From Streptomyces roseifaciens (GTDB lineage Bacteria; Actinomycetota; Actinomycetes; Streptomycetales; Streptomycetaceae): 64,000 nucleotides of DNA. Positions 45,465 to 49,277 of this stretch are shown here, in pieces. The notes beneath the pieces are model-generated. The model saw only the letters and a list, made by a program, of their open reading frames with translations, had not been told where the DNA came from and made no database searches. Each line of letters opens with the position of its first letter. Position 1 is the stretch's first letter. Position numbers and translations under genes: made by a program. The stretch is taken from assembly GCF_001445655.1 (NCBI RefSeq), contig NZ_LNBE01000004.1:1550001-1614000 (forward strand). The letters are read 5' to 3'.

Positions 45465-46254
45465 CGATCCCGTCGTCCTCGTTCGACCCGGTGACCTCGT
45501 CGGCGACGGCCCGCAGCTCCGGATGGGCGTTGGCCATGGCCACGCCGTGGGCCGCCCAGCCGAACATCGGTATGTCGTTGGGCATGTCGCCGAAGGCGAT
45601 CGTGTCGGCGGGCTTCATCCCGAGCCGGCGCGCGGCCAGGGACAGGCCGGTGGCCTTGCTCAGCCCCAGCGGCAGCAGCTCGACGATGCCCGCACCCGCC
45701 ATCGTCACGCCGACCAGGTCGCCCGCGGCCGCCCGCGCGGCCTCGGCCAGGGCGTCGTCGTCGAGCTCAGGGTGCTGCAGGTAGAGCTTGTTCAGCGGCT
45801 CGGCCAGGAGCTCTTCCCGGTCGTGGGCCGGGACGGCCGGCAAGGGGCCCTCCTGGATGCGGTAGCCGGGGGTGACGAGCACCTCGCCGTCGAGGCCGTC
45901 ACGGCCCGCGGCGAGGTGCAGCGGGCCGGTCTCGGCCTCGATCTTGGCGATGGCCAGCCCGGCGAGCCGCCGGTCCAGCGTCACCGACGTCAGCAGCCGG
46001 TGCTCGCCCGCGTGGTAGACCTGCGCGCCCTGCGCACACACCGCCAGGCCCTGGTAGTCCAGCTCCTGGAGGATGTGGCGCGTCCACGGGACGGCCCGGC
46101 CGGTCACGACGATGTGCGCGGCACCCGCCTCCGTGGCCAGCTTCAGGGCGGCCCGGGTGCGCTCCGAGACGGTCTCGTCGGAGCGCAGCAGGGTGCCGTC
46201 GAGGTCGGTCGCGACGAGACGGTAGGGCAGCGCGGAACCAGGGCCGTCAGTCAC
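45436..46254 (-). CDS. Cof-type HAD phosphatase (second)
   Basis: 272 aa from GTG 46254, which overlaps the serS stop (GTGA), so it is translationally coupled to serS. Motifs [27 protein letters not shown] and [10 protein letters not shown] are complete. Paralogue of the gene at 27502-28410. Cytoplasmic small-molecule phosphatase; substrate unknown. Its link with seryl-tRNA synthetase is conserved in Streptomyces gene order but its meaning is not known. Confidence 0.88.
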
Positions 46255-47528
46255 TTGGCGACGGGCTCCAGCACCTCGCGCCCGCCCAGGTACGGACGGA
46301 GCACCTCGGGCACGCGCACCGAGCCGTCGGCCTGCTGGTGGTTCTCCAGCAGCGCCACGATCGTGCGCGGCACCGCGCACAGCGTGCCGTTGAGGGTGGC
46401 CAGCGGCTTGACGGTCTTGCCGTCGCGCAGACGGATGGACAGCCGCCGCGACTGGAACTCGTTGCAGTTGGAGGTCGAGGTGAGCTCGCGGTACTTGCCC
46501 TGGGTGGGGATCCACGCCTCGCAGTCGAACTTGCGCGAGGCTGACGCGCCCAGGTCACCCGTGGCGACGTCGATCACCTGGTAGGGCAGCTCGAGGCTGT
46601 TCAGCCACTGCTTCTCCCACTCCAGCAGGCGCGCGTGCTCGGCCTCGGCGTCCTCCGGCGCGACGTACGAGAACATCTCGACCTTGTCGAACTGGTGGAC
46701 GCGGAAGATGCCGCGGGTGTCCTTGCCGTACGTGCCGGCCTCGCGGCGGAAGCACGGCGAGAAGCCGGCGTAGCGCAGCGGGAGCTGCGAGGCCTCGACG
46801 ATCTCGTCCATGTGGTACGCCGCGAGCGGCACCTCGGACGTGCCCACCAGGTAGAAGTCGTCCTTCTCCAGGTGGTAGACGTCCTGCGCGGCCTGGCCGA
46901 GGAAGCCCGTGCCCTCCATGGCACGCGGCTTGACCAGGGCGGGCGTCAGCATCGGGGTGAAGCCGGCGGCCGTGGCCTGGGCGATGGCGGCGTTGACGAG
47001 CGCGAGCTCCAGCAGGGCGCCGACGCCCGTCAGGTAGTAGAAGCGCGAGCCGGAGACCTTGGCGCCGCGCTCGACGTCGATCGCGCCGAGCAGCTGGCCG
47101 AGCTCCAGGTGGTCCTTGGGCTCGAAGCCCTCGGCGGCGAAGTCGCGCGGGTTGCCGACGGTGTCCAGGACGACGAAGTCGTCCTCGCCGCCGCGCGGCA
47201 CGTCGGGGTGGACCAGGTTGCCGATCTGCAGCAGCAGGCGCTGGGCCTCGGCGGCGGCCTCGTCCTGGTCGGCGTCGGCGGCCTTGACGGCGGCGGACAG
47301 CTCGCCGGCCTTCTTCAGCAGCGCGGTCTTCTCGTCGCCGACGGCCTTGGGGATGAGCTTGCCGAGCGACTTCTGCTCGGAGCGGAGTTCGTCGAAGCGG
47401 ACGCTGGACGACCTGCGCCGTTCGTCGGCGGAGAGCAGTGCGTCGACGACGTCGACATCCTCTCCACGGGCGCGCTGGGAGGCGCGCACACGGTCGGGGT
47501 CCTCACGAAGCAGGCGAAGGTCAATCAC
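46251..47528 (-). CDS. serS: seryl-tRNA synthetase
   Basis: 425 aa, full length. N-terminal tRNA-binding coiled coil (about 30-105, ending [14 protein letters not shown]), class II catalytic core with motif 2 ([22 protein letters not shown], then [12 protein letters not shown]) and motif 3 near the C-terminus ([19 protein letters not shown]). It charges tRNA-Ser. Upstream is the DnaA-box region. Confidence 0.96.
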
Positions 47529-48197
47529 CCCTCCAGGCTACCGTTGCGGACGCGATCACTCGACGGCATATTCCTCTTGATGGCGGTTTGCCCTATTTTG
47601 GGCGTTCGGAAAAGGCTGCGAATAATCAGGGCCGCGGGTGATCGGGAAGGTGCTGAAAAGCCGTCGGAGCGGACTCCCGGGGAATGGCTGCGCTTTTGCC
47701 GAAAAGGGGGCATAGCGGTGGCGCGGGCGGCTGATCCGCTTGCGGACGGCGGGAGTTGGCCCGCTCCTTGTCCACAGGAGGGAATCCCTCCGCTTTCTTT
47801 GTCCACAGGCTGTGCGCGAAATCTGTGGACGCCGGAATCGAACGTTCCGTCCGCTTCTGTCCTGCGCCGTGTATTCCTTGGTCAAACCTCGCTCGGCCAC
47901 TCATTCGGGTGGTATTGCCTCACCTCAAAGGGTTATTCGCAGACATTCCGCTGACGAGCGAGCTGTGGGCAGCCCGATCGGGCGAACCTAGGTGCTGTGG
48001 ATGACGGCCCTATGGCTAGAGCGATTTGTCGACCTTGACCGATTCGCAGAGCGGTACGGGTGCCTCGTTCTGTCGACTTATCCCCAGGTCGAGAACCCCC
48101 TGTGGATAACTCTGGGGATGTCCGCGCCGACGGCTACCGTCGCGACGTGGACATCAACGACTCCCGCTTACGCGCGGCCGGCCCGGGTGCGGCCTGC
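47529..48197. promoter_or_regulatory. gene-free region with a DnaA-box cluster
   Basis: 669 bases between serS and pheA with no gene and visibly lower GC. DnaA-box sequences: TTGTCCACA on + at 47768-47776 and 47799-47807 (the preferred Streptomyces box); on - GCGTCCACA 47824-47832, TCATCCACA 47996-48004, TTATCCACA 48101-48109. Weaker ones: CTGCCCACA (- 47964-47972) and TTATCCCCA (+ 48078-48086). There is no dnaA, dnaN or other oriC neighbour, so this is not the origin. S. coelicolor is reported to have a high-affinity DnaA-box cluster (D78) near oriC that limits initiation; this is probably the same element. It also holds the serS promoter. Confidence 0.8.
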
Positions 48198-49133
48198 TCA
48201 GGCCCGGCCGTCCTGGCAGCGCACCAGCCAGTCCGCCGCCGTCACGAACTCCTCGTCCGACGTGCCGTAGCGCGCCGGACCGACCTCCGCCGGATCCACG
48301 CCCGCCCGGGGATACGAGCCGAGGAACCGCACCTGCGGGCAGATCCGCTTCAGCCCCATCAGCGCCTCGCCCACGCGCCGGTCGGTGATGTGCCCCTCCG
48401 CGTCGATCGCGAAGCAGTAGTTGCCGATGCCCTCGCCCGTCGGGCGGGACTGGATGAGCATCAGGTTCACCCCGCGCGTCGCGAACTCCTGCAGCAGCTC
48501 CAGCAGGGCGCCGGGGTGGTCGTCGCGCAGCCACACCACGACGGAGGTCTTGTCCGCGCCCGTCCGCGCCGCGGGCCGCGCCGGGCGGCCCACCAGCACG
48601 AACCGGGTCTGCGCGTTCTGCGCGTCGTGGATGTCGGTGACCAGCGGCTCCAGCCCGTACGTGGCCGCCGCGAACTCCCCGGCGAACGCGGCGTCGAAGC
48701 GCCCCTCCTGCACCAGGCGCGCGCCGTCCGCGTTGGAGGCCGCCGACTCCCAGAGCGCGTCCGGCAGATGCGCGGCGAGCCACTTGCGCACCTGCGGCTG
48801 TGCCACGGGGTGGCCGGTCACCGTCTTGATGTCCGCCAGGCCGGTCCCCGGGCGCACGAGCAGCGCGAAGGTGATCTGCAGCAGCACCTCGCGGTAGATC
48901 ATCAGCGGGGCGCCCGTGGCGAGCTGGTCGAGCGTCGCGGTGACGCCGCCCTCCACCGAGTTCTCGATGGGCACGAGCGCGGCCGCCGCCTCGCCGTTCC
49001 GCACGGCGTCCAGCGCCGCCGGCACGGACACCATCGGCACCAGCTCCCGCGTCGCCGCCTCCGGCAGCGTCCGCAGGGCGGCCTCGGTGAACGTGCCCTC
49101 GGGGCCGAGATAGGTGTAGCGGCTGGCCGACAT
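48198..49133 (-). CDS. pheA: prephenate dehydratase
   Basis: 311 aa from ATG 49133 (GAGGAG upstream). Catalytic domain about 1-185 (YLGPEGTFTEAAL, PIENSVEGGV, and the catalytic Thr region NAQTRFVLV), then an ACT regulatory domain about 198-285 (HPGALLELLQEFATRGVNLMLIQSRP) that binds phenylalanine for feedback control. Converts prephenate to phenylpyruvate. No chorismate mutase domain is fused. Confidence 0.95.
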   Translation of the reverse strand: MSASRYTYLGPEGTFTEAALRTLPEAATRELVPMVSVPAALDAVRNGEAAAALVPIENSVEGGVTATLDQLATGAPLMIYREVLLQITFALLVRPGTGLADIKTVTGHPVAQPQVRKWLAAHLPDALWESAASNADGARLVQEGRFDAAFAGEFAAATYGLEPLVTDIHDAQNAQTRFVLVGRPARPAARTGADKTSVVVWLRDDHPGALLELLQEFATRGVNLMLIQSRPTGEGIGNYCFAIDAEGHITDRRVGEALMGLKRICPQVRFLGSYPRAGVDPAEVGPARYGTSDEEFVTAADWLVRCQDGRA

Positions 49134-49277
49134 CACGCTGGCTCCTCGATCGTCTGGGGGCTCGCCACGATACCGAGCGCCCCGGCGGCGGGCCCCGCGC
49201 ACTGAGCGCCGGCCCGGTCCGTCCCCGCGGGTGAGGAGCACGGCCGGGCCCTGCGGTCTTCGGTCCTCCGGCCGCCC

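Follow-up and report, generated by a model that had tools for sequence, protein, structure and literature searches.

The intergenic gap between pheA and serS in Streptomyces roseifaciens carries a cluster of DnaA boxes that is conserved in the genus and further into the family, at a nearly constant place relative to dnaA. We consider it likely (probability of about 0.75) that this gap is an oriC-proximal DnaA-holding site, orthologous to the S. coelicolor cluster that represses untimely initiation and is said to be called D78. This reading is preferred because of the density of the boxes, their conservation, their near-constant place, their independence from the neighbouring genes, the existence of sister clusters and the S. 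coelicolor cluster cited in reviews. The window, that is, the whole stretch of DNA analysed, spans 64,000 nucleotides; the features of the locus are listed by their positions in it.

46251..47528, minus strand: serS, seryl-tRNA synthetase (ORF and Pfam)
47529..48197, no strand assigned: pheA-serS intergenic gap housing the cluster (ORFs and Pfam flanks)
47768..47776, plus strand: box B3, TTGTCCACA, exact, direct repeat of B2, conservation 0.95
47799..47807, plus strand: box B2, TTGTCCACA, exact, conservation 0.98
47824..47832, minus strand: box B1, GCGTCCACA, two mismatches, TCCACA invariant, conservation 0.81
47889..47956, no strand assigned: conserved middle element, free of DnaA boxes at up to one mismatch, mean conservation 0.72
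start 47964, minus strand: weaker copy CTGCCCACA, conservation 0.08, not conserved
47996..48004, minus strand: box A5, TCATCCACA, one mismatch, partly conserved, conservation 0.74
48026..48034, plus strand: box A4, TTGTCGACC, two mismatches, conserved, conservation 0.88
48078..48086, plus strand: box A2, TTATCCCCA, one mismatch, inverted relative to A1, conservation 0.94
48101..48109, minus strand: box A1, TTATCCACA, exact, conservation 0.99
start 48146, minus strand: weaker copy ATGTCCACG, conservation 0.24, not conserved
48198..49241, minus strand: pheA, prephenate dehydratase (ORF and Pfam)

The sequence-only reading had described a box cluster of about 340 bp between serS and pheA in a gap of lower GC content. 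Indeed, the sites run from 47768 to 48109 (342 bp), and the 669-bp gap has a GC content of 0.62 against 0.72 for the whole window. With the pattern TTRTCCACA, 1000 dinucleotide shuffles of the gap gave means of 0.005 exact boxes and 0.104 boxes at up to one mismatch, with maxima of 1 and 2, against the observed 3 and 5; the cluster is thus real, with about 0.10 expected where five boxes (three exact, two with one mismatch) are found. Over the whole window, 15 matches at up to one mismatch were found versus 5.4 expected, and this gap accounts for 5 of them. The genome (8,639,831 bases in 13 contigs) holds 42 exact boxes, from which an exact triplet inside 342 bp would be expected by chance about 6e-5 times per genome.

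The boxes form two groups with a conserved non-box element between them. Group A consists of A1 and the inverted A2 together with the weaker A4 and A5, and group B of B1 opposite to the direct pair B2-B3. TTGTCCACA is the high-affinity DnaA box of S. coelicolor, according to an excerpt of PMC4285127. Across 81 aligned gaps, column conservation was 0.74-0.99 in the named boxes versus 0.51 in the other 606 columns; within B1, TCCACA was conserved at 1.00 and the first three bases were variable (0.36-0.49). From the boxes listed earlier, the exact ones, TTATCCCCA and TTGTCGACC proved to be conserved and TCATCCACA partly so, whereas CTGCCCACA and ATGTCCACG did not.

A query with 47700-48130 found a single copy in the genome. 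The nearest named relatives by serS were S. olivoverticillatus (96%) and S. klenkii (94%). The promoter scan of the gap returned no sigma-70-like promoter, the terminator scan one terminator-like site versus 0.7 expected, and the Rfam scan only two matches, both far under their gathering scores. The AdpA consensus, as given in the excerpt of PMC4285127, matched the gap at two sites with one mismatch; across 212 loci the best match had one mismatch in 178 and was perfect in 8, all of these being raw counts without a shuffle control.

Conservation was then followed through the genus and the family. All 80 Streptomyces pheA-serS gaps fetched with serS contained two or more exact boxes and four or more at up to one mismatch; one of them, L071, showed only two boxes in a 720-bp cut because its box groups are split. 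Of 297 family genomes, 143 showed the A1-A2 pair pattern, the reversed control giving none among the matches listed, and ten same-genus genomes without the strict pattern, when checked via serS, all had the cluster with the second box or the spacing altered. For the family, 30 genomes were chosen by the analyst from the 297 (10 of the same genus, 20 of other genera); serS was recovered in 29, G001 giving no match, and pheA lay within the fetched stretch at 24 of the 29 loci (10 same genus, 14 outside). In each of these 24, the 900 bp upstream of serS held two or more exact boxes, and 23 had at least four at up to one mismatch, L120 having three. The five loci without pheA in the stretch had no exact box upstream of serS. 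G002, G003, G015 and G019 keep two or three exact boxes behind pheA, no more than 0.4 kb from it, with serS 1.5-2.2 kb from pheA; G004 has no exact box behind pheA and three about 1.2 kb before it. Differing box orders were seen in genus g14 (three genomes), G010 and G011. The earlier proposal, which had been staked on the boxes being conserved in relatives, came through this comparison.

Outside the family, 30 genomes were chosen by the analyst from 268 non-genus genomes, and in none of the 29 evaluable ones did the roughly 1.5 kb upstream of serS hold an exact box; a pheA homologue was present in the stretch of ten of them. Since the cluster is missing upstream of serS in these genomes, it would answer no general actinobacterial need, and its origin seems to lie within this family.

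In 10 of the 81 Streptomyces gaps, pheA and group A are parted by inserts of about 1 kb. In L071 (Streptomyces sp. H27-H5), about 1.5 kb of inserted DNA parts group A from group B, so that A1 and B2 are 1775 bp apart. Because of these inserts, the split in L071 and the boxes behind pheA in the four genomes above, the cluster is tied strictly to neither neighbour gene.

A search of the genome with PF00308 (DnaA) gave one gene, at C4:1505641-1506126(-). The presumed oriC is on its 3' side, where there are 11 one-mismatch boxes but no exact one; its upstream side carries one exact box. The pheA-serS cluster lies 92.4 kb away on the upstream side and does not adjoin dnaA as an oriC would, and it holds exact boxes where the presumed oriC holds one-mismatch boxes only. 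Among 53 genomes in which the cluster was located by its pattern, the distance was 74.9-96.0 kb in 49 (mean of these 84.6, sd 4.8), with side and orientation constant. In the other four, G235 has the cluster 102 kb from dnaA and inverted, G256 and G150 have dnaA at the contig start so that the numbering wraps (about 83 kb in G256 if its 8,955,726-base contig is circular), and G091 has a match 18 kb from dnaA on the opposite side.

Two further box groups were found, with gene names from Pfam:

L162:3872-3960 = C4:1539871-1539959: sister DnaA-box group between a MatE gene and dnaB, two exact and two one-mismatch boxes
L163:4378-4575 = C6:14377-14574: sister group of three exact boxes, flanked by the 3' end of a rhomboid gene and that of a convergent ORF, which we take to be crgA-like

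The group beside dnaB is on the same side of dnaA as the pheA-serS cluster, at a distance of about 34 kb. At least one exact box and at least three at up to one mismatch were present upstream of dnaB in 27 of 27 evaluable family genomes, a count without L227 (not evaluable) and L230; the outermost two core boxes were 80 bp apart in 23, 79 bp in two and 91 bp in one, and G004 had a different layout. A DUF881 gene stands near the rhomboid-side group, and at least two exact boxes were found upstream of it at 25 of 25 family loci, the DUF881 match being missing in 3 of 28 genomes. The second hits L257-L260 did not enter the counts. In G315, from another family, neither the dnaB nor the DUF881 locus had an exact box. 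The pheA-serS cluster is therefore one of three conserved candidate DnaA-binding clusters found near dnaA, and the description "away from oriC" stands in that the cluster is outside oriC but is relative in view of this company.

Several observations were made beside these groups. Several single-contig relatives (e.g. G009, G012, G060, G076, G080) have the DUF881/rhomboid locus 20-30 kb from dnaA; here it is on C6 (near 15 kb) and dnaA on C4 (near 1.5 Mb), through rearrangement or assembly error. Two exact inverted boxes 34 bp apart lie between protein kinase and TetR-family genes at C4:3488914-3488956 (L164:3915-3957). In G044, G005, G019 and G349 a long in-frame insert with an intein-like look interrupts the DnaB match (open frames of 783-1460 aa).

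A 2006 paper on S. coelicolor by Smulczyk-Krawczyszyn et al. (J Bacteriol) reportedly described an oriC-proximal cluster named D78, the three clusters being H69, H24 and D78. The rhomboid/crgA-side, pre-dnaB and pheA-serS loci would presumably fit these three, and the cosmid name D78 presumably suits the serS region; our literature search found no paper giving the D78 sequence. According to excerpts of PMC5742627, PMC4585315 and PMC10950094, a DnaA-box cluster near oriC represses untimely initiation in S. coelicolor. The genus is shared and both are box clusters outside but near oriC, whereas the species differ and the identity of that cluster with the pheA-serS locus is presumed. What was found here is of the same kind, with several high-affinity-type boxes clustered outside oriC and 92 kb from dnaA. 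In B. subtilis, a different phylum, six oriC-proximal clusters outside oriC are likewise described, whose joint loss leads to early initiation (PMC13220808, in part).

If the gap is such a DnaA-holding site, DnaA would have a higher affinity for the exact A1, B2 and B3 than for the one-mismatch boxes of the presumed oriC, and the complexes on A and B may meet on one helix face across a loop. Since replication reaches the site shortly after oriC has fired, its doubling would lower free or active DnaA and delay re-initiation. It may sequester DnaA alone or also alter its bound nucleotide. Points against this reading are that plain titration would need no fixed spacing, that G004 lacks boxes behind pheA, that the 29 other-family genomes lack the cluster upstream of serS and that the B2-serS spacing looks phased too.

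The geometry of the cluster was measured in two sets of loci, which may share close relatives: 99 of 110 loci (11 without a measurable A-B layout were left out) and all 120 of the loci retrieved with the A1-A2 pattern, every one with serS downstream and a group-B box. The A1-A2 offset was 25 bp in 184 of the 219 and 23-26 bp in 214, and the B2-B3 offset was 29-33 bp in 205. In 205 loci the A1-B2 separation belonged to one of five classes, spaced by about a helical turn, namely 256-261 bp (138 loci), 268-271 (41), 278-282 (15), 288-291 (5) and 301-303 (6), with 14 elsewhere; the class limits were set after the data were seen. A coding explanation for the gap was dropped because spacing steps of 10-11 bp would break the reading frame.

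Relatedness was taken into account with a FastTree serS tree of 212 loci, after 7 of the 219 had been dropped as duplicates by upstream DNA; parsimony changes of at least 4 bp were scored, and one of the 212 was outside the A-B range. At a period of 10.5 bp, the mean cosine was 0.62 for A1-B2 (33 changes), 0.30 for B2-serS (100 changes; 0.53 at 11 bp) and 0.20 for the pheA-A1 control (125 changes). By permutation in nine settings, A1-B2 exceeded the control (p 0.0001-0.016), as did B2-serS (p 0.0002-0.035). The control was itself weakly periodic (p 0.0004 against zero), and part of the phasing signal may therefore be a general indel habit here; no other intergenic interval in the 13-kb loci was suitable as a control. 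Rayleigh and best-period tests on the spacing values were set aside as unreliable because related genomes inflate them and the control also peaks, at 11.5-11.75. Taken together, the helical phase between groups A and B is probably conserved. With orientation, pair spacing and probable phase kept, the evidence favours an ordered complex no less than a passive sponge. The proposal of a DnaA-titrating site was thus right in kind, the cluster being intergenic and conserved, but the fixed geometry suggests an ordered complex beyond plain titration; the latter, which predicts that box number matters, may still be how the site works.

Another reading is an active DnaA-converting complex of the datA or DARS type, ordered and looped, in which a bending protein might sit on the middle element; it would promote ATP hydrolysis or ADP release beyond simply holding DnaA. 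We regard this as possible but rather doubtful. The kept pair spacing, the steps of about one helical turn in A-B separation and the tree-based excess over the control speak for it, although the control interval is weakly periodic as well. Minimal datA of E. coli comprises DnaA boxes and one IHF site (PMC5742627, in part), and the middle element of the gap is conserved. Its consensus over 147 loci centres on AACCCTTTGGAGCGAG; no close copy was found elsewhere in the window or in L163-L165, and L162 gave one three-mismatch match. A presumed IHF consensus matched the element at up to one mismatch in 66 of 147 loci versus 2 of 147 letter-shuffled ones, a count uncorrected for relatedness, and the IHF-like look is a lead only. 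Like the gap, datA is an intergenic box cluster outside oriC. It restrains initiation, as the gap may, but needs its IHF site, where the gap has only the IHF-like look, and stimulates ATP hydrolysis (same excerpt). DARS1 and DARS2 have in common a core of three boxes at fixed spacing, in which box I runs opposite to the other two, II and III, and group B, compared by this orientation rule only, also has one box opposite two at fixed spacing; DARS activates DnaA, however, and the effect reported for S. coelicolor is repression (PMC5742627, in part).

A role in transcription, in which DnaA at B, with A joining by looping, would regulate serS and tie translation capacity to replication, is unlikely in our estimate. 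The cluster is upstream of serS, one sister cluster is upstream of dnaB, and the B2-serS distance also looks phased, with steps near 11 bp, which keeps a promoter role possible. However, in the window the serS start is about 240 bp away from B3 and about 580 bp away from A1, boxes remain behind pheA in the four genomes with serS 1.5-2.2 kb from it, the rhomboid/crgA-side sister cluster sits between two gene 3' ends, and serS genes of other families do without the cluster. That short box-like words piled up by chance in a lower-GC gap has next to no probability: the genome does hold 807 matches at up to one mismatch against 623 for the reversed pattern, but the last 720 bp of the 81 gaps (window included) averaged 3.16 exact boxes and 5.51 at up to one mismatch, 1620 shuffled gaps averaged 0.007 and 0.18 with none reaching four, and the cluster is conserved across Streptomyces gaps and further family loci.

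To the DnaA-holding site as preferred here, this analysis adds the family-wide conservation, the independence from neighbouring genes, the likely helical phasing and the two sister clusters. A bolder and tentative picture, which we hold to be the less likely one, is that of a phased, looped DnaA nucleoprotein machine with A facing B and a bending protein on the middle element, one of three conserved assemblies (rhomboid/crgA side, pre-dnaB and pheA-serS) round the Streptomycetaceae origin that would jointly set DnaA activity, for example by nucleotide switching. L071 could serve as a natural experiment on the need for groups A and B to lie close together. Streptomyces has many chromosome copies per hypha and initiation is still controlled; a kept cluster with apparent phasing lets box number, as in titration, be told from the geometry of a datA- or DARS-like complex.
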